Source: Neobacillus cucumis (GTDB lineage Bacteria > Bacillota > Bacilli > Bacillales_B > DSM-18226). Taken from it: a DNA stretch of 64,000 bases. Of this stretch, positions 32,284-49,389 are shown piece after piece (the first letter of the stretch is position 1; each line of letters begins with the position of its first letter). The notes below the pieces were generated by a model. It was not told the DNA's origin and searched no databases. It worked only from the letters and a program-made list of their open reading frames with translations. The translations under genes were made by a program, and so were the position numbers. Where the stretch lies: the NCBI RefSeq assembly GCF_023715505.1, contig NZ_JAMBOH010000028.1, positions 1 through 64,000 of the forward strand, in the 5' to 3' direction.

Positions 32284-33345
32284 TTAATCAAACGAAATTT
32301 CCATTCCTTTTTCACTGGATTCATAGATGCCACATAAAATTTTCATCATTTCTAATCCGTCTTCCACTGGACTTAAGGTCTCGGTTTCACCTAGGCAGGC
32401 TAATACGAAGTGATCCATTTCATTTTGAAAGCCTTGTTCGAAGTCAAATGTTAACGAATCTACCTGAGGAGTCATGTTCAATATCGTATTGTACTTTTCA
32501 GTAATGAGTGATAATTCTGGTTCAACTTCGAGTCCTCCTTTTTCTCCATAGAGTTTGATTGAGATTTCATTCTGTTTTGCATGGAGAGTAAAACTGACGT
32601 CTACCATTAAAGAAGCACCGTTTTCAAATCGGATCAACGCATTTGCCATGTCTTCAACGGTATTAATTTCCGGATTATAATCTGCAGCTTTATAGAATGA
32701 TAGATTTTTAATATTAGATCTGTTCCCGAGCTTAGAGTAGGTATTCCCGCTAATCGACTTTACTCTCGGTTTCCCCATTAAATACCAGCAAATATCAATT
32801 ACGTGTACGCCAAGATCAATTAAGGGTCCTCCACCTGATCTTTCGATATCTGAAAACCAACCGCCTGGATTTCCGAGTTTTCTTATGCAGGAAGCTTTGG
32901 CATAATAAATCTCACCGATCTCATCCGCATCAATAAAATCCTTTAATATCGCTGTATTGGAGGCATATCTTCTTACAAAACCAACCTGAAGGATTTTCCC
33001 GGTTTGTTTTACGGTTTCTTCAATTTGCTTTGCCTCAGCTACAGTGGTACTTAATGGCTTTTCTACTAGAACGTGTTTCCCTGCTTTTAATGCGGCAATG
33101 GCGATTTCCGCATGGGAGTGATTCCATGTACAGATACTGACCGCATCAATATCTTGATCAGCTAGTAATGACCGATAATCTCCATAAACTCTGGCAGCAC
33201 CATATTTATTTGCCTTCTCTTCTGCTCTTACTGTATTCTTATCACAAATGGCATATAACTCGGCTCTTTCATTTTTTTGATAGGACTGCAGATGCATATC
33301 TGAGATGGACCCAGCACCGATAACACCTATTTTAAGTTTCCCCAT
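32284..33345 (-). CDS. Gfo/Idh/MocA oxidoreductase 1
   Basis: A 353-aa NAD(P)-dependent sugar dehydrogenase-type protein. The Rossmann motif is GVIGAGSISDMH, the family EKP Lys is in LVEKPLS, and a GGGPLIDLGVHVID block carries the catalytic Asp and His. Members oxidise or reduce sugars, inositols or glycosides. It is the last gene of a set (permease, permease, binding protein, isomerase, this), 19 bp after the isomerase gene. It probably acts on the imported sugar together with that isomerase. Confidence 0.88.
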   Translation of the reverse strand: MGKLKIGVIGAGSISDMHLQSYQKNERAELYAICDKNTVRAEEKANKYGAARVYGDYRSLLADQDIDAVSICTWNHSHAEIAIAALKAGKHVLVEKPLSTTVAEAKQIEETVKQTGKILQVGFVRRYASNTAILKDFIDADEIGEIYYAKASCIRKLGNPGGWFSDIERSGGGPLIDLGVHVIDICWYLMGKPRVKSISGNTYSKLGNRSNIKNLSFYKAADYNPEINTVEDMANALIRFENGASLMVDVSFTLHAKQNEISIKLYGEKGGLEVEPELSLITEKYNTILNMTPQVDSLTFDFEQGFQNEMDHFVLACLGETETLSPVEDGLEMMKILCGIYESSEKGMEISFD

Positions 33346-33364
33346 TACTCATTCTCCCCTTCTA

Positions 33365-34228
33365 TTAAACTTGTTCCCAAATTCTCCGAACATTGTCTAA
33401 GCTAATCTTTGAACCCTTCTTACAATCCTCCATACCTTCAAATTCTATGGAGATATAGCCGTCATAATTTGAGTGCTTAATCACTTTAATGATTTCATAT
33501 ATATCAATGTCCCCGTGGCCAATAATGGAGCCTCTTAAATAATTCCCACAAGTTGTTTGAAACCATCCCTCTCCAGGGTTATACTTTTCAGGCCGGTAAT
33601 AAAAATCTTTAATATGAATCATTGAAGCATGTTGAATATTTTTCTTCACTGCTTTGATAGGATTTTCATCTACACAAAGAAAATTTCCGGTATCTAATGT
33701 GGTTTTGAAATTAACCTTATTTACACGATGTAGCAGAGCTTGGACACGGTCACTTGCTTGAATAAAATATCCATGGTTTTCAACACTAGTTGTAATACCA
33801 TATTCGGCTGCATAATCGGCAATTCTTTTACAGGCATCAGTGATTCTTGGTAAATCTTGTTCAAATTGTTGAAAAGAAGTCTCTCCGATCGGTCTCCAAG
33901 CCACATCATGACGCATAAGCTTTACCCCTAGCCTATTTGCAATATCCACTTGTTTAAATACTCTTTCTACTTCTTGTTCAAATTGCTCTTCATCCTCTGT
34001 AATAAAGTTTGCTCCAATTGCATAATTAGAAATCTCAATACCGACATTTTCTGCTTTTTGGCGTATCGCATCTGCTAAATCAGGATTTTCGTCCAATGAA
34101 AACCCCATTGGTACGATTTCAATATGTTCTCCGCCTTGCTCGGCAGTCCATTCGATTGCTTCAAGGATATTTAATTCCTTTGACTTAAGGGCTGAATATA
34201 AACTATAAGAACTTAAACCTAGTTTCAT
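33365..34228 (-). CDS. TIM-barrel sugar isomerase/epimerase-like protein 1
   Basis: A 287-aa protein of the AP endonuclease 2/xylose isomerase-like TIM-barrel superfamily. Metal-ligand blocks are visible: SVENHGY (Glu), TLDTGNFL (Asp), MIHIKDFYY (His) and YISIEFEG (Glu). Members include inosose isomerases, 3-keto-sugar epimerases and beta-eliminating glycoside lyases. Pairing with the oxidoreductase downstream fits an oxidise-then-rearrange reaction. It follows the binding-protein gene by about 120 bp. Confidence 0.85.
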   Translation of the reverse strand: MKLGLSSYSLYSALKSKELNILEAIEWTAEQGGEHIEIVPMGFSLDENPDLADAIRQKAENVGIEISNYAIGANFITEDEEQFEQEVERVFKQVDIANRLGVKLMRHDVAWRPIGETSFQQFEQDLPRITDACKRIADYAAEYGITTSVENHGYFIQASDRVQALLHRVNKVNFKTTLDTGNFLCVDENPIKAVKKNIQHASMIHIKDFYYRPEKYNPGEGWFQTTCGNYLRGSIIGHGDIDIYEIIKVIKHSNYDGYISIEFEGMEDCKKGSKISLDNVRRIWEQV

Positions 34229-34348
34229 TTTCTACCTCCAATTATTTAAACATAAGTGCAATCCATATTATGATACCTTTAACCAACGGGAAAAAATTAT
34301 CATATAAACCAGAGGAGTTTTTGATACTCCCCTGCATGAACGATTGTA

Positions 34349-35722
34349 CTATTGATTAGCAGACCACTTTTCAGCACGTTTTTGTAAGTCATCCAAATAG
34401 GACTGAATATCTGGAGCATTTCCGTTACGCGCCTTACTAATAAAGCCGTTGATGGCAGGTACAATTTCACTTCCGAAAAACGGATCTGCTTCATCTAAGA
34501 GAGTCGATTTAGAAACTTGGGCGATTTCCATTGCAGTTTTCATATATTTATCTTCTTTTGATACGAAACTAGCATCTGTAAGGGTTGGAGTAAATTTGAA
34601 ATTATCATAGGTATATTTTTGGGTAATTGGACCTGTTAGGAATTTTAAAACCTCCCAGGATGCTTCAACGTTTTTAGCATCTTTTGCCATTACAAAAGGG
34701 TCTACAGCAACCCATCCTTCACCATTAGGACCTAGATTTAAGGTTGATTCAAAACGATCAAGCAATTTGGTATTTTTATTGGCCATGACTTCGCCCATCG
34801 TGCTTGCACCATTTGCATCTAAATGAATAGCGATATCGTTATTCTCCAAGCCAAAGTTTTCATTTCCTTGGGTATTCAAAATGCCTGGCGGTGCATATTT
34901 TGCTGCCTCTTTTAACCATTCAAAGGCTTTAACCATTTCTGGTGAATTCAAATTCCATTTGATATTTTTTAGATCGTTTAATGTCCCTTCTCCTCCATTT
35001 GCTCCATACGCATAACTTAAAGCTACAAAAGTGGATGCATTTAAAGCTTTTCCATCAAACCAAATACCATAGTTCTTTTTTCCGGTTTTAGGATTTTTCC
35101 CAGTCATTTTCTTTGCTGTTTCTAATATTTCTTCAGGAGTTGGATTGTTTGATAAGTAATCTACTCCCCATTCATCAAAAAGCTTTTTATCATAGATAAT
35201 AATACGTTTTCCGAGCACAGCTGGAATTCCAAAATGAACTTTTTTGTCAAAAGATTTTGTACTATAGGAATTTTCCCAAACACCTTTTAAATACATATTA
35301 GGATCAAAGGACGAATCTTTTTCAATCAATGGATCTAATCCTTTTAACAGCCCTTGTTTCTGCCACTGGGAAGCAAATGCCCCACCCGTATAAAGAATGT
35401 CAACATCTCCAGATTTTAACATCGCCGTTTGTTTTGCTTGAGCATTTTCCCAAGGTACTTGGTATAATTCTAATTTAATATTTGGGTATCTTGGTTCAAA
35501 TTCTTTCTTAAGAAAATCTTTTAATCCCACATTCTCGATACCAGTAATAGGATCAATACCACTTTCTAACTGCCAGCCTGCCAGAGAAACACGAACGGTG
35601 CCCTTAATTTTCGAAACAACTTTAGCATCACTCACTTCTTCCTTTGTGCTGCTTGTAGAAGAACATGCAGCTGTGGTTAACATAAGTAATGCAATAAAGA
35701 TAAGATAAAGTTTTTTAACCAT
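34349..35722 (-). CDS. ABC sugar-binding lipoprotein 1
   Basis: A 457-aa family 1 extracellular solute-binding lipoprotein. A signal peptide ends in a lipobox with Cys (TTAACSS). The body shows the expected sugar-binder blocks: DILYTGGAFASQW, then AVLGKRIIIYDKKLFDEWG, then a late PFFGSEIVPAINGF. It lies 59 bp downstream of the second permease gene and delivers substrate to that pair. No ATPase gene is present; such importers normally borrow the shared MsmX-type ATPase. Confidence 0.9.
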   Translation of the reverse strand: MVKKLYLIFIALLMLTTAACSSTSSTKEEVSDAKVVSKIKGTVRVSLAGWQLESGIDPITGIENVGLKDFLKKEFEPRYPNIKLELYQVPWENAQAKQTAMLKSGDVDILYTGGAFASQWQKQGLLKGLDPLIEKDSSFDPNMYLKGVWENSYSTKSFDKKVHFGIPAVLGKRIIIYDKKLFDEWGVDYLSNNPTPEEILETAKKMTGKNPKTGKKNYGIWFDGKALNASTFVALSYAYGANGGEGTLNDLKNIKWNLNSPEMVKAFEWLKEAAKYAPPGILNTQGNENFGLENNDIAIHLDANGASTMGEVMANKNTKLLDRFESTLNLGPNGEGWVAVDPFVMAKDAKNVEASWEVLKFLTGPITQKYTYDNFKFTPTLTDASFVSKEDKYMKTAMEIAQVSKSTLLDEADPFFGSEIVPAINGFISKARNGNAPDIQSYLDDLQKRAEKWSANQ

Positions 35723-35781: not shown

Positions 35782-36663
35782 TTATTGTTTGATTCCTGAC
35801 AACGCAATGCTTTCAACGATATAGCGTTGCAGGAATAGATAAAGAACAATTACCGGTATGAGACTCGCTGTCGTTGCGGCCATTATGACGGAAGGTAAGG
35901 GCAAATCTTTGTTGTACGAAAACATCGCTATTCCCAATTGAATGGTATATTTATCAGGTGTTTTCAAAGCTAATAAAGGCCAGAGTAAATCATTCCAAAC
36001 AGCTAAAAATTGTAAAATGACCATGGTGGCTAAGACGGGAATACATAGAGGTAAATAAATCTTTAAAAATACGATAAATTCGTTAGCACCATCAATGATC
36101 GCTGCTTCTCGCAAGCTCCCTGGAAGTTGATCGATAAATGATTTTGCCAAAAAGGTTCCAAATGCATAATTTAATGCGGGTAAAAAGAAAGACCAATAAG
36201 TATCTAAAAGCTTAAACTTAGCAAACATTAAATATTGCGGAATCATCGTCATTTCAAAGGGGATCATCATGGTACTTAAAGCGAGTAAAAGGACAATATT
36301 GGATCCTTTAAATTTCAACTTTGATATGGCATACCCTGAAAATAACGCCGACATAAGACTTACTATAATGACTCCTAATGACACGATAAGAGAGTTAATC
36401 ATATATTTTAGCATTGGGATATTTGTGAAAGCCATTTGATAGGTTTTAATCGAAAACTCTTCAGGCCAAAATCTTGGTGGGAATGGAATTTTAAGTCTTG
36501 CACCCCAATCAAAACTGGTTATAACCATCCAAATGAAAGGTATGATCATAATTAAGGATCCTATTAGTAAAACAGCTATTAGTACCCCATCAGCAACTGC
36601 TTTAGGACGAAACAAAGAATGTTTTCTAATAGGTTTGTTTCTATTAATCGTTGTGATTTTCAT
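35782..36663 (-). CDS. carbohydrate ABC permease 1 (MalG-like)
   Basis: A 293-aa inner membrane subunit with six helices. The EAA coupling loop reads LREAAIIDGANEFIVFLKIYLPLC, the MalG form. It starts 11 bp after the partner permease gene and is translated with it. The substrate is not visible in sequence; the downstream oxidoreductase and isomerase suggest a sugar or glycoside. Confidence 0.9.
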   Translation of the reverse strand: MKITTINRNKPIRKHSLFRPKAVADGVLIAVLLIGSLIMIIPFIWMVITSFDWGARLKIPFPPRFWPEEFSIKTYQMAFTNIPMLKYMINSLIVSLGVIIVSLMSALFSGYAISKLKFKGSNIVLLLALSTMMIPFEMTMIPQYLMFAKFKLLDTYWSFFLPALNYAFGTFLAKSFIDQLPGSLREAAIIDGANEFIVFLKIYLPLCIPVLATMVILQFLAVWNDLLWPLLALKTPDKYTIQLGIAMFSYNKDLPLPSVIMAATTASLIPVIVLYLFLQRYIVESIALSGIKQ

Positions 36664-36674
36664 TGTTTCCCCCC

Positions 36675-37622
36675 TTAGTCGAGATTACTTTTTTTATTCG
36701 TGAACATTAGGACAATTGTCAGAACAAGAATAAAGAAAAATAAGATATAAGAAGCGGCAGTTGCTATTCCCATTTGTGAAGATAGAAACCCATTACGATA
36801 GATATATAGAACAGCCGTCATTAATGAGCCTGCAGGATTCCCAGCCGTTCCCCCGATTAACCAAACATCTGTAAATCGTTTCATGGCATTAATTGTTCCA
36901 ATAATCACCATGAATATAATAATAGGTCTTAAATACGGAACCGTGATATAGAACCATTTTTTCAACCAATTGGCGCCATCGACCTCAGCAGCTTCATATA
37001 AATCTTTTGGTACACTTGTCAATGCTGCAATAAATATAATCGTGTTATATCCCAACATTCCCCAAAGTGTCATAAGTACAATACTGAATCTTGCATATTT
37101 TGGATCGGTAAACCAGCCGATTGGTTCAATTCCGACTAAGCCTAAAACATAATTTAATAATCCTTCCTCTCCTGGATTAAATAGAAACGTGAAGAGGATA
37201 CTAGTTGCAACTAGCGAAACGACATTAGGTAAAAAATAAACTCCTTTAAAGAAATTTCTCCATTTTGACTTACTGATATTGTGGATTAAGCTTGCTAAAA
37301 TGAAAGAGAAGGTAACACCAAAGAAAACAGATAAAATCCCCATATAAAATGTGTTATAAATGGACTTCCAAAATAAAGAGTCTGTTAATACATATTTATA
37401 GTTACTTAAACCTGTCCAATTTCCCTCAAATGATTTGGATGATTTCTTAAAACTGAGAATAAAGGCACCAATCATAGGATAAATGGAAAATACGGCAATT
37501 CCAATTAATAAGGGAGCTGAAAATAAATAACCTGCCAAATCTCGGCGTGTAAAAAACTTCTTTCGACTCAGCGTGCTCGGATACGTTTGGGGATTGATAG
37601 ACGACTTTATTTCAACGGACAT
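36675..37622 (-). CDS. carbohydrate ABC permease 1 (MalF-like)
   Basis: A 315-aa permease with about six helices and the EAA loop YEAAEVDGANWLKKWFYITV. AAGGAG precedes the ATG. It is preceded by a 129-bp gap after oxidoreductase 2, long enough for a promoter, so the first ABC operon (37622 to 32284) may start here. Confidence 0.9.
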   Translation of the reverse strand: MSVEIKSSINPQTYPSTLSRKKFFTRRDLAGYLFSAPLLIGIAVFSIYPMIGAFILSFKKSSKSFEGNWTGLSNYKYVLTDSLFWKSIYNTFYMGILSVFFGVTFSFILASLIHNISKSKWRNFFKGVYFLPNVVSLVATSILFTFLFNPGEEGLLNYVLGLVGIEPIGWFTDPKYARFSIVLMTLWGMLGYNTIIFIAALTSVPKDLYEAAEVDGANWLKKWFYITVPYLRPIIIFMVIIGTINAMKRFTDVWLIGGTAGNPAGSLMTAVLYIYRNGFLSSQMGIATAASYILFFFILVLTIVLMFTNKKSNLD

Positions 37623-37751: not shown

Positions 37752-38735
37752 TTAGATTCTATTTAAGGTAACAACTTTTTTCTGTTTGTCTGATTCATAG
37801 GCTGCTTTTACAACTTCCAACGTTCTTAAGCCATCTTCTCCCGTAATGGATGGCGGCCTTTTTTCTTTGATACTTTGAAGGAAATCTTCTATCAGCCCCT
37901 TATCCATGTCATCAGCCGTGGATAAATGCTGGACTTTCCCTTCCACATCATTGTAGTAGGTGGAATGCTGTTTAAAGGTATCTACTGATAGCGTTCCTTT
38001 CGTACCAACAAACTCTAAAAGGACATCACCCCAGCTAGGAAATGCTTTGGGACAGGACCAGCTCGGGTCGATGGATACGATGACACCTGATTCAAATTCT
38101 AATGTCACCATTCCGCAATCCTCTACATCAATCGGGTAGAATCTCGTGTCAAGCTCAGCATAAACATTTTTAACTTCATCATTTAGAATCCACCGAATAA
38201 GATCCATTACGTGAACAATGTGATCGGTTGCCGCCCCGCCTCCCGATAATTCTTTTTCGATATACCAGCCTCCTGGCATTTGCCCATGGTTTGTCCCATT
38301 AATGGCAACAACTTCCCCAATTGTCCCTGAGCGAATGTATTCTCGTACCCTTTGAATCGCTGGTGCAAATCTTACCGGATAGGCAACCTGTAAAATCACA
38401 CCGAACTCTTCACAGGCATCAATCATTGCTTTCGCATCTTCTACTTCTGTAGCAATTGGTTTTTCGCATAAAATATGTTTTCCTGCGCGTGCCGCAGCAA
38501 TTACATGGTCTTTATGCTTACTGTTTTCGGAACACACCACCACTGCATCAACATCTGAATCTAGTAATTGATCTAAATCGGAAATATATAGACAGTTAAA
38601 GGTGTTTGCCATTTCTGTTCCTATTTCTCGATCCTCATCCCAAATGGCGGAAATTTCAACCTCAGGGAACTCTAATAGATGTTTGGCATAACTAAAGGCA
38701 TGCATATGAGCAAAACTTATCATTCCAATCTTCAT
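37752..38735 (-). CDS. Gfo/Idh/MocA oxidoreductase 2 (SFAH subtype)
   Basis: A 327-aa member of the family with an atypical nucleotide site: the usual GxGxxG is replaced by MISFAHMHAFSY. The rest is canonical: SENSKHKDHV, LCEKPIA and GGGAATDHIVHVMD. It is clearly paralogous to oxidoreductase 5 (41841-42812), which has SFAHGHANSY at the same place. It abuts oxidoreductase 3 with the stop and start joined (TAAATG). The altered dinucleotide loop raises the question of whether it binds NAD(P) in the usual way. Confidence 0.88.
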   Translation of the reverse strand: MKIGMISFAHMHAFSYAKHLLEFPEVEISAIWDEDREIGTEMANTFNCLYISDLDQLLDSDVDAVVVCSENSKHKDHVIAAARAGKHILCEKPIATEVEDAKAMIDACEEFGVILQVAYPVRFAPAIQRVREYIRSGTIGEVVAINGTNHGQMPGGWYIEKELSGGGAATDHIVHVMDLIRWILNDEVKNVYAELDTRFYPIDVEDCGMVTLEFESGVIVSIDPSWSCPKAFPSWGDVLLEFVGTKGTLSVDTFKQHSTYYNDVEGKVQHLSTADDMDKGLIEDFLQSIKEKRPPSITGEDGLRTLEVVKAAYESDKQKKVVTLNRI

Positions 38736-39743
38736 TTAATACACCTCCTTCTTTGTTAGAAGCGAAACGGGCTGCCCCGACCTTATGGATTCAACGGCAG
38801 CAACGGCAATTTCTACTGCTTTCATCGCATCTTCAGCAGAAACTAGCGGTTGTTCGTCGTTTTCTAAACAGTTCATAAAGTGTTCAAGTTGAAGCTGTAA
38901 TGGTGTTTTCGCTGCGATCGTTTCAGGTACTGCAACATCTACTTTGTTTTTTGCTCCAGCATTTACTAAGTTCAGTTTAATTGGCTTACTATCCTGATGA
39001 TTATAAACAATCATGCCTTTGCTTCCAGCAATCTCATAGGACGATTCAAATTCTTTTTTTGCCCAAGATAATTCTAGATGAACAATGGTTCCACTTTGCA
39101 TTCGTAAGGTTACTAACGCATACGCGATCGCATTTCCATCTTGCCACTTTCTATGAACCTGTTTCGCAAAAACCCTTTCTACTTCACCAAATGTCCACCT
39201 TACCCAATCAAAGTCATGAATCCCGAGGTCTAAAAGGATTCCTCCACTCTTATCTTCATCGTGATACCAAGAATTTCTGCCTTGCGGATATGGACCGCCT
39301 CTTGATAAACGAACTACACCCGGTTGACCAATCAACCCTCTTGTTATTTGGTCATGTGCTTGTTTATATTCCGGGAAAAAGCGAAGTGTATGCCCAACGA
39401 ATAGTTGGACATTACACTTCTGACAGATTTCAAGAACTTCTTTGCACTCAACCTGGTCTAAAGCAAGAGGTTTCTCACAAATAATATGTTTTCCTTTTTG
39501 GGCAGCTTTTGCCAAGTACTCCTTGTGCAAATAGGTGGGTAAACAAATATCGATTACATCCACATCGGTATTCAGTAATTCATCAAAATCGGTAAATGAG
39601 CTGCACTTATAGGTTTCAGACAATTGATCCACGGCATCCTTTTTACGGCCTAAGATTCCTACAATGCTAACATTATTCATTTTCGACCATGTCTCCAGAT
39701 GTAACTTACCCATTGTTCCTGTACCAATTACCGCAATTTTCAC
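38736..39743 (-). CDS. Gfo/Idh/MocA oxidoreductase 3
   Basis: A 335-aa member with a normal Rossmann motif (VIGTGTMGKLH), an ICEKPLA Lys block and the catalytic LDLGIHDFDW. It is paralogous to oxidoreductase 6 (42809-43834): both share GTMG, FVGH, RFFPEY and an ending built on AEDA. Order and spacing with oxidoreductase 2 mirror the 6-5 pair, so one pair arose from the other. Confidence 0.88.
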   Translation of the reverse strand: MKIAVIGTGTMGKLHLETWSKMNNVSIVGILGRKKDAVDQLSETYKCSSFTDFDELLNTDVDVIDICLPTYLHKEYLAKAAQKGKHIICEKPLALDQVECKEVLEICQKCNVQLFVGHTLRFFPEYKQAHDQITRGLIGQPGVVRLSRGGPYPQGRNSWYHDEDKSGGILLDLGIHDFDWVRWTFGEVERVFAKQVHRKWQDGNAIAYALVTLRMQSGTIVHLELSWAKKEFESSYEIAGSKGMIVYNHQDSKPIKLNLVNAGAKNKVDVAVPETIAAKTPLQLQLEHFMNCLENDEQPLVSAEDAMKAVEIAVAAVESIRSGQPVSLLTKKEVY

Positions 39744-39788: not shown

Positions 39789-40781
39789 TTATAACGTAAT
39801 TTTTTCTCCTGCTATGGCTGACAGCTTGATTGGGAGACCCACTTCATTCGACTTGTTTGCCGCTAATGTAGCAGCAAGAGTTTTTACTCCGTCTTCATAA
39901 CTTGATAAGAGAAGTTGAGCGTCGCCCTTCATGACCGCCTCAATAAATCGTCTATCCTGCTCCAGATAAAAATCTACCTTCGATTGATAGCTATTCGAAG
40001 AATCTTTTTCAGCAATTGTGAGATTTGTTCCATCAATCACCACACGGAAATCCTTACCTAAAATTTCAATGCCAGAACGATGGTCAAACTGAATAATTGA
40101 AGAATCAAGATGTCCTACAGCACCAGATTCAAATGTAACATTCACCGATGTGACATCTGGAATATCAATATTAGGAATGTCAGATAAAACCTGTAACCTC
40201 ATATTGGCATAAACTCGATCAATATCACCCGCTAAATATCTCATTAAATCTAATGTATGGGTGGACTGTTCTACAAGTTGTCCGCCGGATTTATTGATTT
40301 CACGATACCAAGGGGTTGGAACAAATGATGTTATGTAATGTCCCCTTACCATTGCGATAGTCTTATCCTTTAAATAGTCTTTTGCCTTCGCAACTGTATC
40401 CAGATAGCGTAAACAATAGCCTACCCCACAGATAACCCCTGATTCTTTGATTGCTTTCGCCTTCTTTTGTACCGTTTCTAAATCGAGGCCTAACGGCTTT
40501 TCTACTAATAGATGAATACCGCGCTTGACGATCTTTTCTTCAATATCCCCGTGTGCAAATGGAGGAACACAGACAAAGACAGCATCTAATGCTTCATTTT
40601 CAAGCATCGCATCGAGATCGGTGTAGGCAGCAGCGTTAAATTCCAATCCTTTTTTCTTGGCGTTTTCTTCAACGATGTCACATACAGCCACAATTTCTGC
40701 ATGATTGATTTTTGACACATTCTCCAAATGTACTCCGGCAATTCCACCTACACCTACAAATCCAACTTTTACTTTACTCAT
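39789..40781 (-). CDS. Gfo/Idh/MocA oxidoreductase 4
   Basis: A 330-aa member with GFVGVGGIAGVH, LLVEKPLG and a GGQLVEQSTHTLDL block where the usual Asp is replaced by Glu-Gln-Ser before the His-x-x-Asp. It differs from the two duplicated pairs and has no close partner here. It begins 11 bp after the isomerase 2 gene, so the two are co-translated. It is likely to act on the same keto-sugar. Confidence 0.88.
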   Translation of the reverse strand: MSKVKVGFVGVGGIAGVHLENVSKINHAEIVAVCDIVEENAKKKGLEFNAAAYTDLDAMLENEALDAVFVCVPPFAHGDIEEKIVKRGIHLLVEKPLGLDLETVQKKAKAIKESGVICGVGYCLRYLDTVAKAKDYLKDKTIAMVRGHYITSFVPTPWYREINKSGGQLVEQSTHTLDLMRYLAGDIDRVYANMRLQVLSDIPNIDIPDVTSVNVTFESGAVGHLDSSIIQFDHRSGIEILGKDFRVVIDGTNLTIAEKDSSNSYQSKVDFYLEQDRRFIEAVMKGDAQLLLSSYEDGVKTLAATLAANKSNEVGLPIKLSAIAGEKITL

Positions 40782-41635: not shown

Positions 41636-41650
41636 TGCAATCATCTCCTT

Positions 41651-41804
41651 CAGTTTTTAACCAAGTCTAATGTGTTGCTAAGAGAGCTCCAGACTTTTTC
41701 AACATCCATTCCCATCACACTAGCCAATTCAAGTTTCTTTTTGACAAAACGTTCTCCAGGGATGTATTTTCTGGATAGCACCATTGATTGATTCCTTTTA
41801 ACAT
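41651..41804 (-). pseudogene. remnant copy of isomerase 2
   Basis: The minus strand starts MLKGINQWCYPENTSLENV, matching the N-terminus of isomerase 2 (MLKGINQWCYPEGTSLKDV). It then jumps across a large internal deletion and a frameshift to KKLELASVMGMD, matching KQIELASVMGID in the same protein, and ends at a stop at 41651. It is a leftover of a duplicated isomerase gene. Confidence 0.8.
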
Positions 41805-41840: not shown

Positions 41841-42812
41841 TTACTTCAGCTTTACAGGCTGCCGTTTTTCGGCAGATTCATAGGCAGCTATTGCAACCTC
41901 AAGTGCCTTCAATCCATCAGACCCTGTGATGGAAGGTTCTTTTCCAGTTGAAACACTATTCAAAAAGTCACTTATCAATCCAAAATCCATGTCATCTCCC
42001 CAATAATTCCAATTAGCACCACTCTTGTTATAAACATCTAACTTTTGAGCAAACGCATCGACCTTAAGGGTTCCTTCGCTGCCGATAATTTCTAACGTTA
42101 CGTCCCCCCAGGTTGGATAGGATTCGTTACGTGACCAACTGCAATCCAAAGTGGAAAATACATCATTATCGAACTCAATGGTGAGGACGCCACAATCGTC
42201 GATTGTATGAGATGAAATGGAATTGTCAATTTCTGCATATACTTCCCTCGGCTCGGAACCCATGAACCACCTCATGATGTCCACAACATGGACGGTATGG
42301 TCAATAACAGCTCCTCCGCCTGATAAAGAAGAATCGACAAACCATCCGCCAGGATTGGTCCCGCGATTTGTGCCTTTTATGGCAAGAATTTTCCCAAGTT
42401 CCCCATTATCAATCATCTTTTTGGCCCGAAGAATCGCTGAGTTAAATCGTACCGGGAAGGCTGTTTGCAAAATGACCTGATTCTGCCTGCATACGTCGAT
42501 CATCTCTTTGGCATCTTCCAGTTTCGACGCAATAGGTTTTTCACACAAAATATGTTTACCAGCCTTTGCTGCTGCAACGACATGTTCGCGGTGTTTGCTA
42601 TTCTCAGATGTGATGATCACTGCATCTATATCCTGTTTCAGTAATTCTTGGTATCGGCTGAAATATTGAGTTTGATATCTCAGGGCTGCGTTTGTACCGC
42701 GATTTTCATCTTCATCTGCAATTCCCACCAATTGAACTCCATGTATTTTGGTTAATGCATCTGCGTAACTATTGGCATGACCATGAGCAAAACTGATAAT
42801 TCCCACCTTCAT
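41841..42812 (-). CDS. Gfo/Idh/MocA oxidoreductase 5 (SFAH subtype)
   Basis: A 323-aa paralog of oxidoreductase 2 with the same unusual nucleotide loop (IISFAHGHANSY), a SENSKHREHV block, LCEKPIA and GGGAVIDHTVHVVD. It overlaps the end of oxidoreductase 6 by four bases (ATGA). The shared EKP, GGG and DHxVH blocks show the catalytic half is intact. Confidence 0.88.
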   Translation of the reverse strand: MKVGIISFAHGHANSYADALTKIHGVQLVGIADEDENRGTNAALRYQTQYFSRYQELLKQDIDAVIITSENSKHREHVVAAAKAGKHILCEKPIASKLEDAKEMIDVCRQNQVILQTAFPVRFNSAILRAKKMIDNGELGKILAIKGTNRGTNPGGWFVDSSLSGGGAVIDHTVHVVDIMRWFMGSEPREVYAEIDNSISSHTIDDCGVLTIEFDNDVFSTLDCSWSRNESYPTWGDVTLEIIGSEGTLKVDAFAQKLDVYNKSGANWNYWGDDMDFGLISDFLNSVSTGKEPSITGSDGLKALEVAIAAYESAEKRQPVKLK

Positions 42813-43834
42813 CGGATTTGTGCCTCCTCTTTTTGGTCTTCATTTATAACAACCTCTCTGCCAGTTTCAATCGATTTTAGTGCTGAAAGGGCTATTTCCA
42901 TCGCTTTATAGGCATCTTCTGCTGTGACAATCGGGGCCTTGCTGGTTTCAATGCAATTAATAAAATGGTTTAGTTCAACGAAATAAGGGTTGTGCTTTAA
43001 CGGACTTTCCGGAACGGCTACACCACCGCCTGCGGTACTCTTCTTTCTTCCTTCAAACAAAACAGGAACAGACTTGGAGCTGTCATGGTCAATAATTCCG
43101 TCTTGTCCCGCAAATTCAAACCGGGTTGTGAATGATTGATGCGCCCAGGATCCTTCAACATGAGCGATCACGCCGTTTTTAAAGCGAAGAGTCACCAACG
43201 AATAATCAATTCGCTTCAGACTCCCATCTTTGATGCTTTTGGCATAGACACGTTCCACTTCCCCATAACACCATCTAAGGAAGTCAAAGTCATGGATAAT
43301 CATATCCAACACCAATCCGCCGCTCTTTTCATAGTCCGCATACCAGTCATCTGATCCGTGCGGAAATCCTCCCCCTCTATAGGTACGGACAACGGCTGTG
43401 TTTCCGATTATTCCTTCCTCAATAATCTTTTTGGCACGTACATACTCAGGAAAGAATCGCACGACATGACCAACAAATAGCTTTACGTCTTTTTCCTTGC
43501 AATACTCAATCATTTCTCTGGCATCATCCAGGTTCCTAGAGAGCGGCTTTTCACAAATGACATGCAGCCCTTGATCGGCAGCCTTCTTCAAAAAAGGTTT
43601 ATGGAAAGGAGTGGGCAAACAAATCGAAACGACATCGACTTTTTTCAATGTTTGGATGGCTTCTTCGAATGTTTGGAACGCCGTTGTTTGTAATTTTTCG
43701 GCCAGCTCCTTGGCTTTATCCAAATTTTTATCGACGATTCCAGTAAGAACAGCATTTTCCATTTTTGCGAAAGCTTCACCATGCACATTTCCCATCGTGC
43801 CAGCCCCAATTAATAGAACATGTAACAATGTCAT
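42809..43834 (-). CDS. Gfo/Idh/MocA oxidoreductase 6
   Basis: A 341-aa member with LLIGAGTMGNVH, ICEKPLS, FVGHVVRFFPEY and LDMIIHDFDFL. It is paralogous to oxidoreductase 3 and is translationally coupled to oxidoreductase 5. GGGAGAG lies directly before the ATG at 43834, so a TTG six bases inside is an alternative start. It is the first dehydrogenase gene after the ROK kinase. Confidence 0.88.
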   Translation of the reverse strand: MTLLHVLLIGAGTMGNVHGEAFAKMENAVLTGIVDKNLDKAKELAEKLQTTAFQTFEEAIQTLKKVDVVSICLPTPFHKPFLKKAADQGLHVICEKPLSRNLDDAREMIEYCKEKDVKLFVGHVVRFFPEYVRAKKIIEEGIIGNTAVVRTYRGGGFPHGSDDWYADYEKSGGLVLDMIIHDFDFLRWCYGEVERVYAKSIKDGSLKRIDYSLVTLRFKNGVIAHVEGSWAHQSFTTRFEFAGQDGIIDHDSSKSVPVLFEGRKKSTAGGGVAVPESPLKHNPYFVELNHFINCIETSKAPIVTAEDAYKAMEIALSALKSIETGREVVINEDQKEEAQIR

Positions 43835-43873: not shown

Positions 43874-44851
43874 CTAATTAGGCAGGGCAGTTAGTTCATC
43901 GACCTTGCAATAAAACAAACCAGTTGCCCCCACTACACATGCGTAGCTGCCAAGACTTGATTTCTCGATTTTCACCTGTTCAACCATACTTTGAATGCCA
44001 TGCTTATGCACGGTACTTCGGATCGATGGGAGGATTAATTCTGATTCGTTCATCACGCCCCCACCCAAAATCACCGCTTCTGTATTAAAAAGATGGATCA
44101 GATTAATAATTCCTAACCCAAGATATTCCCCAACTTCCTCCAGCAATTCAATCGAAAAGGAATCGCCCATTTTGGCTGCCGTACAAATATCAACGGCGGT
44201 TAACTTATCAATTTTAGCGGAAAGGTAAGGATTGACTTCACCAGTTTCAAGCCGTTCCCGGGCAATAGCGGCAATCGCAGTTCCTGATGCGTAGTTCTCT
44301 AAACAGCCTTTATTTCCACAAGGACAAAGGGGACCATTTAGATTAATAGAGATGTGCCCAAATTCTCCGGCGCTATCATGACTTCCTTTTAAAAGACTGT
44401 CGTTGCTGATAATTCCTGCCCCAATCCCAGTACTGACCGTTATGTAGATGAGATTGTGTTTTCCTTTGCCACTGCCCCACAGCCATTCACCTACTGCTGC
44501 CGCATTAGCATCGTTATATAGCTGAACAGGAAGACCAAACTTCTTTTCTAGTACTTTCCCGATTGGAAAATTCTCCAAATTCAAATTGTTTGCATAAAGA
44601 ATTTCTTTCTTTTTTGAATCGATCACCCCGGCTGTGGCGATGCCAATGCCTTTAATTCGATTCATCTCGATGTCTTCTTTTTTAATGAGGGATTCAATCG
44701 CAGAGATGATTTGATGACTGAAATTTTCCCCTCCCCCCGTTGTGTCACACTGAACTTCCGAAACGACTTCTCCGTTCTCGGAAACTAGTGCGGAAAGGAT
44801 TTTTGTTCCTCCAATATCTAAACCGATAGCAAATTCTTCAGTTGCTTTCAA
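43874..44851 (-). CDS. ROK family sugar kinase
   Basis: A 325-aa ROK kinase. It opens GLDIGGTKILSALV (ATP phosphate loop), has the zinc-binding CPCGNKGCLENYASG motif and the substrate block NDANAAAVGEW with catalytic Asp. There is no DNA-binding N-terminus, so it is the enzyme form, of glucokinase/fructokinase type. It phosphorylates a hexose, probably the sugar freed by the oxidoreductases. It lies between the second ABC importer and the oxidoreductase genes. Confidence 0.9.
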   Translation of the reverse strand: MKATEEFAIGLDIGGTKILSALVSENGEVVSEVQCDTTGGGENFSHQIISAIESLIKKEDIEMNRIKGIGIATAGVIDSKKKEILYANNLNLENFPIGKVLEKKFGLPVQLYNDANAAAVGEWLWGSGKGKHNLIYITVSTGIGAGIISNDSLLKGSHDSAGEFGHISINLNGPLCPCGNKGCLENYASGTAIAAIARERLETGEVNPYLSAKIDKLTAVDICTAAKMGDSFSIELLEEVGEYLGLGIINLIHLFNTEAVILGGGVMNESELILPSIRSTVHKHGIQSMVEQVKIEKSSLGSYACVVGATGLFYCKVDELTALPN

Positions 44852-44886: not shown

Positions 44887-45702
44887 CTACTTTCGGACCC
44901 CGCTTAACGAAATACCGGCAATCAGGTGTTTCTGTAAAAAGATAAACATAACAATCATCGGAATCGTAGATAACAGGGCACCTGCCATGAGCAAAGGATA
45001 ATTGGTAGAATACTGACCTTGGAAAGAAGCAATCCCAATAGACAGTACTCTCATATTCTCAGAGTTTGTCATAATTAACGGCCACAGAAAATCGTTCCAT
45101 GTTGCAAGCGCCGTAAAAATACCGAGAGCAATCAGGGCAGGTGTAGCATTCGGCAGCAGCACCCTCCAATAAATGCCCCACCAGGAACAGCCATCGATAA
45201 TCGCTGCCTCATCCAATTCTTTCGGGATCCCCATAAAGAACTGCCGAAGCAAGAAGACTCCAAATGCACTGAATATTCCTGGAACGATTAAGGCATAAAA
45301 CGTATCGATCCACCCCAGCTTCGTCATAATAGCATAATTCGGGATTAAAATAACTTGTGGAGGAACCATTAAAACAGACAGAATGACAATGAAAATGACA
45401 TTTTTAAACGGAAATTTCATGCGTGCGAAGGCGAATGCTGCCATCGAACAAAGAAATAACTGAGCAAGAGTCCGGCCAACGGTTACAATCATTGTGTTAA
45501 TGTAGTAGTTTAGGAAATCAACGTCTTCGAAAACCTTAACGAAATTATCAAAATGCCATTCCTTCGGGATAATCGATGGCGGTACCTTCATGGACTCACC
45601 GTAGGATTTCAAAGATGTAGAGATCATCCACAAAAATGGCATCATCATAATCAAGGCACCAATGATCAGCAAAATATGACTTAAAAGCTTCTTTTCTTTC
45701 AA
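44887..45702 (-). CDS. carbohydrate ABC permease 2 (MalG-like)
   Basis: A permease of about 271 aa with six helices and the EAA loop LDEAAIIDGCSWWGIYWRVLLP. I choose the TTG at 45702 because AGGGGGTG is 7 nt upstream; a GTG at 45720 overlaps the previous stop but sits before that site. It pairs with the MalF-like gene immediately upstream. Confidence 0.88.
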   Translation of the reverse strand: MKEKKLLSHILLIIGALIMMMPFLWMISTSLKSYGESMKVPPSIIPKEWHFDNFVKVFEDVDFLNYYINTMIVTVGRTLAQLFLCSMAAFAFARMKFPFKNVIFIVILSVLMVPPQVILIPNYAIMTKLGWIDTFYALIVPGIFSAFGVFLLRQFFMGIPKELDEAAIIDGCSWWGIYWRVLLPNATPALIALGIFTALATWNDFLWPLIMTNSENMRVLSIGIASFQGQYSTNYPLLMAGALLSTIPMIVMFIFLQKHLIAGISLSGVRK

Positions 45703-45719
45703 TTCCTTACACCCCCTCA

Positions 45720-46673
45720 CTAGGAATCATAATGAACCCATTTCTTTTGGAAGACGAATTGGATGATCGTAATCGCTAAAATGGCTAAGAATAAGAGAAA
45801 TGCCTGGGCTGAAGCAATTCCCATTTGTGAGTATTTGAATCCAGATTCATAGACTCCAAATACAATGGTTCGGAGTGGATCTAATAACGCGTTGTTGTCG
45901 CCAATCATGACAAAAATCAAATCAAACATCTGCAGAGAACTAATCATAGAAGTGATAAATACGAAGAACAGGGTTGGCGTAATCAATGGCAATGTAATGT
46001 TTAAGAATTGCCTAAACTTCGAAGCACCGTCAATCTGGGCTGCTTCATAATAGGAATTTGAAACTCCTTGAAGTCCTGCAAGCAATAGAATGACATTATT
46101 GCCGATCGTCATCCATACATAGACAAGAATCACTGAAAACAAAGCAATATTTGGGTCGAATAGCCATGATGGCTGAGGAAGATGGAACACACCTAGAAGA
46201 TAATTAATTAAGCCGTAATCCGTGTTATAAAGCCATTTCCAAACCATTCCCACTGCGACTGGCATGGTAACAACCGGTAAAAAGTATAAAGTCCTGTAAA
46301 GCACCATTCCCTTGATTTTTTGGTTCAGCATAAGGGACACAAAGGTGGCAATCACCACGGATAAAGGGACCGACACAGCTGTAAAGACGATCGTATTGAT
46401 GATGGACCTCTGAAAGGTTGGATCCACAAATAAAGTCCGAATATTTTCAAGGCCAACATATACCGGTGCTGTAATGCCATCCCAGCTTGAAAAGGATAAG
46501 GCAAAGGATGCAACGGCAGGCAGCATATAGAAGATAAGAAGTCCTAAAAAAGTAGGTGCTATGAACAAAAGAGCGAAAATAGCTTCCTTATTCAACCTTT
46601 TCTTTTTCTGCTTAACAGCAACAATTTGGGTTTTGTTCTTTTCAATAGTCGAAGAAAAGTTGGTCAACATCAT
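45720..46673 (-). CDS. carbohydrate ABC permease 2 (MalF-like)
   Basis: A permease of about 317 aa with six helices and the EAA loop YEAAQIDGASKFRQFLNITLP. The N-terminus is soluble and basic. AAAGGAG is followed within a few bases by ATG, ATG and TTG, so the exact start may shift by one to three codons. It sits between the binding protein and the second permease of importer 2. Confidence 0.88.
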   Translation of the reverse strand: MMLTNFSSTIEKNKTQIVAVKQKKKRLNKEAIFALLFIAPTFLGLLIFYMLPAVASFALSFSSWDGITAPVYVGLENIRTLFVDPTFQRSIINTIVFTAVSVPLSVVIATFVSLMLNQKIKGMVLYRTLYFLPVVTMPVAVGMVWKWLYNTDYGLINYLLGVFHLPQPSWLFDPNIALFSVILVYVWMTIGNNVILLLAGLQGVSNSYYEAAQIDGASKFRQFLNITLPLITPTLFFVFITSMISSLQMFDLIFVMIGDNNALLDPLRTIVFGVYESGFKYSQMGIASAQAFLLFLAILAITIIQFVFQKKWVHYDS

Positions 46674-46739
46674 CTCTCCTTTCAATAGTCAAACAGACTG
46701 CCACACAGTCTGTTTAACTATTCATTTAGGCAATCTGGT

Positions 46740-48005
46740 TTACTTCGAATTCTCTTTGGCAAGAATGTCATTCATCTTTTTCGCAATCGTATCCAATGCT
46801 TCATCGATCGGCTTTTGTCCCAAAAAGGCGCTTTGAATTTCTTTCGTCTCAACATCCTGCCACTCTGCAGTATTTTTGGAGACTGGATATGGAACCCCAT
46901 ATTCCTGAGCGTCAAGGAACACTTTTAAATCTAAGGAAGGAATCGACTTTAGCCAGATATCACTGATACTTTTATCTGCAGGAATGGAGAATCCTGATTC
47001 GGCAATCACTTTTTCCCCTTCTTTACCAGATAAGGCTTTGATTAAATCCCAAGCCGCTTTATCATTTTGGGTTTTGGCATTCATCGCCCAACCAATACCG
47101 TGAACAATGGAAGCCTTTTGTTTGCCTTTAGGAAGTGGGGCGACACCTAATTTATCTCCGAGTACGCCTTTAAATTCGCCCGCACTGACTGAAATCGCAG
47201 GAATCATCGCCACTTTTCCCGATAGGAACAGCTGCTTTCCTTCTGTCTCCATAACCGTTTTCGCAGAAGGCGAAATTCCTTCGTCAATTAATTTCTTAAT
47301 AAAATGAAAGGCTTCTTTTGATTCCGGAGAGTCAAATCCAGACTTCTTTTTATCCTCGCTGATAATGTATCCTCCTGCTTGGTGCATAAGATCGTAATAA
47401 ACGGATTGGCTTGTCTTGATATCTGCGGAATACCCATAAATACCCTTTTCCTTATTCGATAGCTTCTTTCCAACCTTTTCAATATCATCCCAGGTCCAGT
47501 TTTCATCTGGGTATGGAACCCCTGCATCATCGAAAAGCTTTTTGTTGTAATACAGTCCGACAGAGTCGATAAAATAAGGAGCCGCATAAAGCTTATCTTG
47601 ATACGTATATAAATCCACAACGGCTGGGAAATAGTTATCCTTTTTATATTCACTATCTTTTTGAATATAAGGTTCTAGATCCTTGATAAATCCTGAAGTA
47701 GCATATTGGTAGAAGTTCGGTCCGTTCATCCAGAAAACATCCGGACCTTTACCGCCTCCAATACTTGTTTTCAGCTTGGTCCAATAATCTTCCCAAGGTG
47801 TGTAGGTGACATTGACCTTGATATCAGGATGTTGTTTCTTAAATGCTTCGATTGATTTATCCACTGCAGGACTGACATTTTTATCCCATAATGCCACTTC
47901 AAGTGTTTTCTTTTCTTTCCCGCTGCTCTGTGTGTTGGAGCAAGCAGACATAGCAACAACGACAATAATTAACAACATGTGAACCAGAAACCTCATCTTT
48001 TTCAT
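46740..48005 (-). CDS. ABC sugar-binding lipoprotein 2
   Basis: A 421-aa family 1 solute-binding lipoprotein with a signal peptide ending in a lipobox (AMSACSN). Sugar-binder blocks include VNVTYTPWEDYWTKLKT, GPDVFWMNGPNF, DSVGLYYNKKLFDDAGV and HGIGWAMNAK. It is the first gene of the second importer operon, about 180 bp from the ROK regulator gene. A TTCATATGAA palindrome lies about 20 bp before its start. It relies on a shared ATPase encoded elsewhere. Confidence 0.9.
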   Translation of the reverse strand: MKKMRFLVHMLLIIVVVAMSACSNTQSSGKEKKTLEVALWDKNVSPAVDKSIEAFKKQHPDIKVNVTYTPWEDYWTKLKTSIGGGKGPDVFWMNGPNFYQYATSGFIKDLEPYIQKDSEYKKDNYFPAVVDLYTYQDKLYAAPYFIDSVGLYYNKKLFDDAGVPYPDENWTWDDIEKVGKKLSNKEKGIYGYSADIKTSQSVYYDLMHQAGGYIISEDKKKSGFDSPESKEAFHFIKKLIDEGISPSAKTVMETEGKQLFLSGKVAMIPAISVSAGEFKGVLGDKLGVAPLPKGKQKASIVHGIGWAMNAKTQNDKAAWDLIKALSGKEGEKVIAESGFSIPADKSISDIWLKSIPSLDLKVFLDAQEYGVPYPVSKNTAEWQDVETKEIQSAFLGQKPIDEALDTIAKKMNDILAKENSK

Positions 48006-48027
48006 TTTTCTCCCCCTCGTATCATTT

Positions 48028-48041
48028 GGTTCATATGAAAC
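48028..48041. promoter_or_regulatory. palindrome upstream of importer 2
   Basis: GTTCATATGAAAC contains a perfect 10-bp palindrome just before the binding-protein gene. It is a candidate operator for the ROK repressor encoded next door, but no second copy was confirmed. Confidence 0.3.
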
Positions 48042-48183
48042 TATTAAAGATTGTAAATCTTAGAAGTCTATAAAAATTGTTAGTGGTTTCATGTTGTTAT
48101 GTATCAACTACATATAGGGACATATGTAGAGAGTTTTTTTATATCTTTCATCACCTCCTAAAATGCAGCCTTTATGTAGGCCA

Positions 48184-49389
48184 TTAAATGGTAAATTGAT
48201 ATTTTTCTTGTAAGAGAACAGCTGCTGCCCCAAGCATTTCAAAATCAGCCCCAAGGGAGGTTGGCTGTATATTGACCTCTTCTTTCAGAATCGGGATGAC
48301 CTGCTTGGATACATGGCTTTTGAGCAAGTTTACAAATAAATCATTTTCCTGGACGATTTCACCGCTGAGGATAATGACCTCAGGGTTTAATAAGTGAATG
48401 GTATTAATAATACCTGTTGAAAGATGAGAGGCGATTTCCTCCATAATTTGCAAACATAAAGAGTCTCCTTCATTTATTGCTTGGACAAATACCGCCGGCG
48501 TAATCCGACTCAGATCGTCTCCAACAAGATCCCTGATGATCGTTTCCTTCCCTCGGCTCATCAGAGCAGTCACAATTTTGGAGTAAATGGCCGGCCAATT
48601 CACATAATTCTCTAAACATCCTTCATTTCCGCATTCACATTTTAGGCCTCCCTTTACAATTGTGGTATGACCAAGCTCTCCTGAACTGCCTTTATATCCA
48701 CGGATAATTTTTCCATTCACCATGATTCCCGATCCGACGCCATCACCAATCGTGATATAAACCAAATCTTTATACTGACCGAAGGAGCCAAAGTAATTTT
48801 CTGCCAATACAAAGGCATTGGTATCATTGTCTAAATAGGTCGGCAGACCAAATTGTTGTTCAACCATTTCCTTTAAAGGAACATCGTAGAGTTTTAGTTT
48901 GGTATTGTAAGAGACAATTCCCTTTCCAGCATCCACAATTCCCGGTGTGATGATGGAGACTCCTTCACACCCCTCGAGATTTTCCTTTGACTGGAGAAAG
49001 TGTTCAATAATTTGTAAGGTCAGGCTAATGATTTCTTCCCCTTGTTGATAATTGGTAGAATGGATTTCCTTTCGTATAATGCTGCCTTCCAAATTCATCT
49101 CAGAAATTTTAATAAAAGAATTCGAAATCGACACGCCAATGACATATCTGGTATTCGGATCGAACCGAAGTAATACCGGCTTCCTTCCTCCATTGGAAAT
49201 ACCAATCCCATCTTCACGCACAACCCCTTCATTAATAAGTTCGTTCACGGCGGAAGTTACGGTGGTTGGACTTATGTTAATTAGCTTTGCTATATCACTT
49301 CTCGAAATAGGTCCATGTTTTCGAATCGTGTCCAATATGATTGACCTATTCAGTTCTTGCATCAGTTTCAAATCACCTGTTCTGCGCAT
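48184..49389 (-). CDS. ROK family transcriptional repressor (NagC/XylR-like)
   Basis: A 401-aa ROK regulator. The N-terminus is a winged helix-turn-helix (PISRSDIAKLINISPTTVTS, then DGIGISNGGRKP). It continues into a ROK sugar-binding domain with the zinc motif CECGNEGCLENY and a DNDTNAFVLAE block. ROK repressors release DNA when they bind a sugar or sugar phosphate. Its position at the head of the locus, in the same direction as the transporters, makes it the likely regulator of the whole cluster. The ATG has GAGGTG about 9 nt upstream. Confidence 0.92.
   Translation of the reverse strand: MRRTGDLKLMQELNRSIILDTIRKHGPISRSDIAKLINISPTTVTSAVNELINEGVVREDGIGISNGGRKPVLLRFDPNTRYVIGVSISNSFIKISEMNLEGSIIRKEIHSTNYQQGEEIISLTLQIIEHFLQSKENLEGCEGVSIITPGIVDAGKGIVSYNTKLKLYDVPLKEMVEQQFGLPTYLDNDTNAFVLAENYFGSFGQYKDLVYITIGDGVGSGIMVNGKIIRGYKGSSGELGHTTIVKGGLKCECGNEGCLENYVNWPAIYSKIVTALMSRGKETIIRDLVGDDLSRITPAVFVQAINEGDSLCLQIMEEIASHLSTGIINTIHLLNPEVIILSGEIVQENDLFVNLLKSHVSKQVIPILKEEVNIQPTSLGADFEMLGAAAVLLQEKYQFTI

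Follow-up and report, generated by a model that had tools for sequence, protein, structure and literature searches.

The window analysed here is the whole of a 64,000-nucleotide stretch of Neobacillus cucumis DNA (contig NZ_JAMBOH010000028.1), and the system in question is a sugar locus at 32284-49389, in which 16 open reading frames (ORFs), all on the - strand, span ~17 kb. The sequence evidence points to an origin of this locus by the merger of two modules, and import followed by oxidoreductive (3-keto-type) processing is the best fit to its gene content. Taken as a whole, we lean slightly towards a reading in which two joined modules import two sugars and process both by 3-keto-type chemistry. 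The division into two modules, each with its own pair of oxidoreductases (GfoA and GfoB), follows from the separate occurrence of the modules in relatives. The fit of 3-keto glycoside processing follows from the grouping of another oxidoreductase, GfoD, with DgpA and YcjS, and from the retention of the metal set by both triosephosphate isomerase (TIM) barrel proteins, TIM1 and TIM2.

Organization of the Locus

An earlier note on this DNA, made from the letters alone, had listed six Gfo/Idh/MocA (Gfo) oxidoreductases, two TIM barrels, two sets of sugar-binding protein (SBP) and permeases, a ROK kinase and a ROK repressor on one strand over 17 kb. This inventory is borne out by Pfam, which backs all 16 assignments, assigns PF01261 to both barrels and finds PF01408 with a C-terminal Gfo domain in six proteins; the ORF coordinates equal those of the note, including the exact limits of the locus. 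The gene letters (GfoA-D, TIM1/TIM2 and others) are labels coined in this analysis. The genes are given below in the order of transcription, together with a gene remnant.

48184..49389, - strand: ROKr, ROK-family repressor with N-terminal winged helix-turn-helix (Pfam ROK 2.1e-56 and HTH_24); first gene of the cluster
46740..48005, - strand: SBP1, sugar-binding protein of importer 1 (Pfam SBP_bac_1; top PDB sequence Lmo0181 5f7v, E 5.7e-47)
45720..46685, - strand: PermA1, importer 1 permease (Pfam BPD_transp_1)
44887..45720, - strand: PermB1, importer 1 permease (Pfam BPD_transp_1)
43874..44851, - strand: ROKk, glucokinase-like ROK sugar kinase without helix-turn-helix (Pfam ROK 1.2e-77; NCBIfam ROK_glcA_fam 236.9 bits)
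42809..43834, - strand: GfoA1, Gfo oxidoreductase with canonical GxGxxG (Pfam; motif alignment)
41841..42812, - strand: GfoB1, Gfo protein without GxGxxG (Pfam; motif alignment)
41704..41804, - strand: decayed remnant of a second TIM2 copy, at the module joint (blastx to TIM2)
40793..41644, - strand: TIM2, metal-site TIM barrel, UlaE/ketose-3-epimerase-like (Pfam PF01261)
39789..40781, - strand: GfoC, Gfo oxidoreductase with Glu replacing the usual catalytic Asp (Pfam; motif E-Q-x-T-H)
38736..39743, - strand: GfoA2, GfoA1 paralogue (45% identity; top PDB 8w9s_A, 8.7e-34)
37752..38735, - strand: GfoB2, GfoB1 paralogue (50% identity; top PDB 2glx, 3.7e-33)
36675..37622, - strand: PermA2, importer 2 permease (Pfam BPD_transp_1)
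35782..36663, - strand: PermB2, importer 2 permease (Pfam BPD_transp_1)
34349..35722, - strand: SBP2, sugar-binding protein of importer 2 (Pfam SBP_bac_1; weak PDB relatives only, top 1eu8 1.2e-11)
33365..34228, - strand: TIM1, metal-site TIM barrel, Art22/IolE/AtHYD-like (Pfam PF01261)
32284..33345, - strand: GfoD, glycoside-3-dehydrogenase-like oxidoreductase of the DgpA/YcjS clade (top PDB DgpA 7xr9, 1.4e-56; tree)

The GfoA1 and GfoB1 ORFs overlap by 4 bases, those of GfoA2 and GfoB2 abut, and the widest intergenic gap within the locus is 196 bases. The grouping of these genes is not due to chance: identical gene orders recur in other Bacillales. SBP1 resembles Lmo0181, which we take to be a binder of alpha-glucan oligosaccharides, and ROKk falls just below the ROK_glcA_fam cut-off of 260.35 bits. 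According to Pfam, an ATPase gene for either importer is absent from the 16 genes; in the relative L047 a MalK-type ATPase gene adjoins GfoC. No Pfam match to a glycoside hydrolase (GH) family was found among the 40 of 48 window ORFs of at least 150 aa that were scanned. No palindromes common to different intergenic regions were seen in a scripted palindrome list (no formal motif search was made), and the plasmid collection gave no match for this DNA in megablast mode. Scans for promoters (39 matches, shuffle mean 53.6) and terminators (13, against 14.0) do not exceed the shuffles and carry no weight.

Separate Occurrence of the Modules in Relatives

Sixty distinct loci were assembled by searching genomes with GfoC, GfoA or GfoD as the key. 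They comprise the window, six of the eight first-search loci (L007 and L008, 22-24% identical, were omitted), all 14 full-length GfoC places of at least 61% identity with one partial place (L039 and L040 not counted beside L001), 19 of 38 GfoA places (from 20 fetched, L113 was removed because it duplicates L006) and, for GfoD, 20 of 54 places; loci of the lgd cluster and of GfoC paralogues (L056-L068) were excluded. The counts are conditional on each locus being at most ~21 kb, on several loci sharing one genome, on L002 and L004 ending inside GfoD, and on identity thresholds that we chose for the orthologue calls.

Two modules, A1-B1-TIM2(-C) with importer 1 and D-TIM1-A2-B2 with or without C-TIM2, occur separately across these loci. 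GfoA is present in 30 of the 60, as the A1 type only in 18, as the A2 type only in 11 and as both in the window alone. Among the 19 loci with A1, SBP1 is found in 12, TIM2 in 12 and GfoD in 3. TIM1 accompanies A2 in 12 of 12 loci and GfoD does so in 10, the other two being L002 and L004. A1-B1-TIM2 stands without D or TIM1 in nine loci, D-TIM1-A2-B2 without C or TIM2 in three, and GfoC without A in nine; the complete set of A, B, C, D, TIM1 and TIM2 is present in eight. The closest relative found is the Neobacillus cucumis locus L001, whose A1, B1, TIM2, C, TIM1 and D are 92-96% identical to those of the window.

Full-length GfoC orthologues (at least 61% identity) occupy 14 places in 13 genomes among the 193 genomes of the family of N. 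cucumis. At the level of the order (397 genomes), at least 33 genomes have GfoA (E to 1e-75), at least 50 have GfoD (1e-90) and at least 13 have GfoC (1e-100), these being lower bounds with the five best first-look candidates scored per genome.

The Joint Between the Modules

The 196-base gap between GfoB1 and TIM2 holds the decayed 5' part of a second TIM2, in which blastx recovers TIM2 residues 4-23 (80%, E 2e-9) and, in another frame, residues 93-110. Over the same 59 bases the remnant matches TIM2 of the locus L053 at 53 positions and the window's own TIM2 at 47, and the 26 bases upstream of it lie within a blastn match to the B1-TIM2 junction of L053. Identity to L053 is 90% for ROKr, 92% for SBP1, 94% for PermA1, 95% for PermB1, 87% for ROKk, 91% for A1 and 89% for B1, and drops beyond the joint to 70% for TIM2 and 61% for C. 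The closer match of the remnant to L053, together with this step in identity, suggests that module 1 is continuous with an L053-like locus, and the step further suggests that the working TIM2-C pair stems from another lineage. Module 1 would have consisted of ROKr, SBP1/PermA1/PermB1, ROKk, GfoA1-GfoB1 and originally its own TIM2, and module 2 of TIM2-GfoC, GfoA2-GfoB2, PermA2/PermB2/SBP2 and TIM1-GfoD. The two would have met at TIM2, with the old TIM2 of module 1 persisting as the remnant. The earlier note had regarded the number of oxidoreductases as high for any one described pathway; the high count is confirmed, and it is explained by two modules with a duplicated A/B pair.

Oxidoreductases

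The six Gfo proteins are not six unrelated enzymes, since they consist of the paralogues A1/A2 and B1/B2 (45% and 50% identical, respectively) plus C and D; the remaining pairs are ~23-31% identical. All 31 aligned GfoA sequences possess GxGxxG. The dinucleotide glycine motif is missing from GfoB in 45 of 45 sequences, which have S-F-A-H-x-H-A instead (F in 95%, the others invariant), and GfoB keeps Lys, Asp and His despite the loss of the dinucleotide-binding glycines. GfoB is a Gfo subfamily without the glycines, and its use of a cofactor is a checkable question. GfoA adjoins GfoB in all 30 loci with GfoA, which supports a pair; an obligate GfoA-GfoB heteromer is not claimed, because GfoB is present without GfoA in 14 of the 60 loci. 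The motif E-Q-x-T-H holds across 26 GfoC sequences, with Glu at the position of the usual catalytic Asp.

In the tree, from which three Iol sequences were dropped for too few filled columns, GfoD clusters at the level of the clade with two DgpA sequences and YcjS, which are glycoside 3-dehydrogenases (support 100/98). LgdA and LgdC form a separate clade, GfoC forms its own clade together with a rhamnose-locus paralogue, and GfoA is nearest to IolG, weakly (85/84). None of the 10 locus proteins tested reaches an NCBIfam cut-off, those of the lgd, iol and BT2156-60 models included. For each of the six oxidoreductases IolG ranks first or second among the models, and its best score, 208.2 bits, is below its cut-off of 355. 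The best scores among the six also stay below the cut-offs for LevoglcsnDh (NF052479, LgdA; GfoD, 140.3 of 650 bits), BT_2158 (84.9 of 750) and BT_2159 (75.8 of 650). The case that the earlier note had set against itself, six ordinary inositol dehydrogenases, is not what was found, as all six score under the IolG cut-off.

The PDB entry 8w9s contains two different Gfo-like chains, of which the shorter (RifT, 256 aa) matches GfoB2 from residue 64 onward. A reading of this entry as RifL-RifT is not supported by the literature search with respect to RifL. RifT is described as a putative NADH-dependent dehydrogenase that acts in the biosynthesis of rifamycin, and 'RifS' is not mentioned in the same partial text (PMC7563148).

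TIM Barrels and Proposed Chemistry

The metal-site sets of the two barrels, E150, D179, H205, K207 and E262 in TIM1 and E153, D183, H208, K210 and E251 in TIM2, are invariant in the alignment. A set of one His, two Glu, one Asp and one Lys is described for the alpha-subunit of C-glycoside lyases (PMC8563793, partial text). It is not specific to these lyases, as LgdB2 has it too in the alignment. Profile and fold comparisons place IolE, AtHYD (a 2-hydroxy-3-keto-glucal hydratase) and DgpC1 among the relatives of TIM1; DgpC1 is distant (1.7e-6), and IolE, the top NCBIfam model, scores 48.6 bits, below the cut-off of 290. For both TIM1 and TIM2, the common barrel accounts for most of the Foldseek and VIA matches. 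With TIM1, Foldseek retrieves the DgpB-C entry 7drd, and VIA does not have it in its best 50 rows, which excludes nothing. The literature on Art22 gave nothing relevant among the matches listed.

Against the TIM1 model LgdB1 reaches no more than 47 bits, and at the position of a metal Glu of TIM1 the alignment shows His in LgdB1. We also note that LgdB1 of Bacilli (L058-L062) has His in place of the first metal Glu of the other barrels in the alignment. The reaction of LgdB1 is reported to be unchanged by Mn2+, with which this His agrees (PMC7676230, partial text).

We infer all catalytic steps at the locus. The two importers would each take up a different glycoside or oligosaccharide. GfoD would oxidize the sugar at C3, as DgpA and YcjS do, and TIM1, with a divalent metal, would eliminate the aglycone or hydrate the resulting 2-hydroxy-3-keto-glycal. 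The freed 3-keto-hexose would be reduced by GfoC and phosphorylated by ROKk. GfoA-GfoB may serve as a paired dehydrogenase for the sugar of the other importer, and TIM2 as a lyase, hydratase or epimerase for the GfoA-GfoB line, which would converge on GfoC. NAD would be regenerated within the line, a feature reported for LgdA/LgdC and DgpA. The earlier note had proposed one pathway of import, oxidation, elimination and re-reduction; import and oxidoreductive processing stand as the best fit (GfoD clade, 100/98; metal sets of the barrels), and a single pathway that needs six oxidoreductases gives way to two modules with a duplicated A/B pair.

A wider scheme, which we regard as doubtful, is that in a six-enzyme line recurrent in Bacillales the steps of a GH4-like cleavage are divided among separate proteins. 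GfoD and the GfoA-GfoB pair would be interchangeable as entry dehydrogenases, both feeding the shared reductase GfoC, and the fusion of modules would let one cell handle two glycosides.

Weighing of the Alternatives

Several observations weigh against two merged modules with 3-keto-type chemistry. YcjS and DgpA, with which GfoD groups, are flagged as long branches by the tree tool. The nearest relative of TIM1, Art22, carries the title isomerase, and the fold matches beyond Art22 and UlaE are near ties, so that lyase, hydratase and epimerase are indistinguishable. In the 14 loci with GfoB and no GfoA, GfoB accompanies GfoD; 12 of them carry d1, a TIM1-like barrel whose representative is 33% identical to TIM1, and L152 and L160 carry TIM1 itself. 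For the orthologues of C, TIM1 and D that are flanked by hydrolases, another role, such as the re-shaping of a released sugar, is just as likely. As to the merger, B1 and TIM2 of L001 are ~12 bases apart with no remnant and L041 shows the same composite order without A2-B2, which leaves the order, direction and date of the joint events unsettled. The composite could instead be ancestral, its relatives having lost parts and the remnant being a decayed tandem duplicate, with no merger in the lineage of the window. The order in L041, the presence of all six enzyme types in eight loci and the identity of 92-96% throughout the core of L001 speak for this history, which we nevertheless consider unlikely, if worth keeping in mind, because the remnant is nearer to TIM2 of L053 than to the window's own and the identity to L053 falls exactly at the remnant.

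With regard to the chemistry, the main rival is stereochemical editing of the ycj kind, in which glycosides of rare hexoses would be oxidized at C3, epimerized by the TIM barrel and reduced to glucosides or glucose with no cleavage by Gfo or TIM proteins. It appears rather unlikely, as the locus lacks ycj-type genes for a phosphorylase, a phosphoglucomutase and a Zn-dehydrogenase, and no other sugar-cleaving gene is seen in it. A cyclitol locus, in which variant dehydrogenases and an inosose dehydratase would degrade inositol, inosamine or methylated inositol, is suggested by the rank of IolG for all six oxidoreductases, by IolE as the top model for TIM1 and by the weak proximity of GfoA to IolG. 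The scores far under the cut-offs (IolG 208 of 355, IolE 48.6 of 290) make it improbable, and three of five related genomes have IolG above the cut-off elsewhere. Furthermore, Pfam finds at the locus no gene of the families that we take to be those of IolA, B, C or D. Deglycosylation of C-glycosides of the dgp type draws on DgpA as the top PDB match of GfoD and on the reach of the TIM1 profile to DgpC1; it is very improbable, since the 16 proteins all belong to other families than the beta-subunit and the gaps of at most 196 bases hold no gene for it. The levoglucosan (lgd) pathway has parts of the same kinds, namely Gfo enzymes, two TIM barrels and an importer (PMC7676230, partial text). It is the most strongly disfavoured, given the score of GfoD for LevoglcsnDh (140 of 650 bits), the separate clade of LgdA and LgdC, and an LgdA of N. 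cucumis that lies over the cut-off elsewhere in the genome (742.8 bits).

Genomic Context of the Enzymes

The neighbours of the GfoC-TIM1-GfoD loci in relatives were assigned by Pfam on chosen proteins of L042, L043, L044, L048 and L049 and by shared gene clusters. GfoC-TIM1-GfoD loci are found among genes of GH2, GH29, GH38, GH125, GH20, sulfatases and radical-SAM proteins; D-TIM1-A2-B2 occurs with GH125 and a GH42-like protein in L104, and A1-B1 with GH1 and GH20 in L106. Given these varied neighbours, the enzymes are add-on tools that some loci combine with hydrolases and others do not. The description 'hydrolase-free' in the earlier note holds at this locus and fails for the modules, since C/TIM1/D orthologues adjoin GH2, GH29, GH38, GH125 and GH20 elsewhere.

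The Bacillaceae GfoC-TIM1-GfoD loci (L048, L044 and related ones), with fucosidase, mannosidases, GH20, sulfatase and radical-SAM genes, resemble loci for the degradation of glycoproteins or sulfated glycans. A GfoC paralogue (36% identical) in L064 (G001:C64) and L065 adjoins a class II aldolase/short-chain dehydrogenase fusion and LutABC-type genes (Pfam for L064 only). A RhaA match lies ~13-15 kb from the L064 paralogue on the same contig of G001, and this relative of GfoC may belong to the use of L-rhamnose. A lactate-yielding 6-deoxyhexose route, considered for LutABC near several six-enzyme loci, was dropped; LutB is confirmed by Pfam in L103 and L064 only, the other calls being based on ORF lengths. 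Beside a GfoD locus, L155:5968-7386 encodes a GntR helix-turn-helix fused to an SBP domain (Pfam for L155 only), and its gene cluster is also present in L150, L157 and L162; the fusion looks like a regulator with the SBP as sensor.

Sugar processing by Gfo enzymes and TIM barrels is already known as a kind. Such oxidoreductive processing has entered glycan biology recently, with few described loci. Neither the composite nor the recurrent set of six enzymes nor the GfoB subfamily has a name in the Pfam and NCBIfam libraries used, and no description of them was recognised in the titles and opening parts of abstracts among the literature matches listed. The locus represents a recurrent Bacillales enzyme set, unnamed by the curated families used, that occurs with or without glycoside hydrolases and is rearranged as whole modules. 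It offers D with TIM1, A with B, and C as testable units.

Other Features of the Window

At 49731-50171 and 51361-51801 (+ strand) a 146-aa ORF is present twice, ~97% identical, inside 576 bases at 96.7%; it also borders the locus in both L001 and L053, and L164 has a 58% relative. Rfam RF01412 (BsrG), presumably the RNA component of a type I toxin-antitoxin system, matches 63368-63612 (- strand) at 122.8 bits, above its gathering score of 55. Two adjoining ORFs for helicase parts at 17813-20610 (- strand), with AAA_11 in the first and AAA_11/AAA_12 and DUF2726 in the second, are possibly a split gene. Genes for a formate-dehydrogenase-like molybdopterin enzyme, a DUF1641 protein and FdhD lie at 11594-15997 (- strand) in a stretch richer in G+C, and 26951-29767 (- strand) encodes a protein of 938 aa in which TIG and GDSL-like domains occur and the middle part is rich in glycine.

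Comparison with Known Systems

Membership in the inositol, levoglucosan, BT2156-60 and dgp systems was tested, and neither the NCBIfam scores required for them nor the beta-subunit was found. The locus shares with the myo-inositol iol system a family-level similarity of Gfo enzymes and IolE-like barrels; it differs in that all scores are below the equivalog cut-offs and the remaining pathway genes are absent from it. The glycoside 3-dehydrogenases of Bacteroides BT2156-BT2160 belong, by their NCBIfam names, to the same superfamily. The scores are, however, far below, and the 16 genes include no DUF1080 protein like BT2157, which is assigned to PF06439 (PMC9007349, partial text). With dgp the locus has in common a GfoD whose nearest PDB sequence is DgpA and a TIM1 with the same metal-site residues. 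The known C-glycoside lyases are alpha/beta heteromers (PMC8563793, PMC12141560, partial texts), whereas the locus is without a beta-subunit gene and TIM1 is only distantly like DgpC.

The precedent for the proposed chemistry is the levoglucosan route, of which variants have been described (PMC10066097, partial text). It uses four enzymes, LgdA for oxidation, LgdB1 for elimination, LgdB2 for hydration with Mn2+, and LgdC for reduction and the regeneration of NAD+ (PMC7676230, partial text). The Bacillus smithii lgd cluster (LgdA/LgdB1/LgdB2/LgdC; same source) resembles our locus in its NAD-dependent Gfo enzymes, PF01261 barrels and ATP-binding cassette importer, and in a logic of oxidation, elimination, hydration and reduction; the parts expected of an lgd member, Gfo enzymes with two PF01261 barrels and an importer, are present here. 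In contrast to lgd, the locus has no LgdA/LgdC orthologue or close relative of LgdB1/LgdB2, and possesses more Gfo enzymes as well as a ROK kinase and repressor. The ycj system of E. coli (YcjS, YcjR, YcjQ) differs in that YcjM/YcjT phosphorylases, the YcjQ Zn-dehydrogenase and a phosphoglucomutase have no counterpart among the 16 genes, and is alike in that GfoD falls in the YcjS clade and that a binding protein is accompanied by two permeases.

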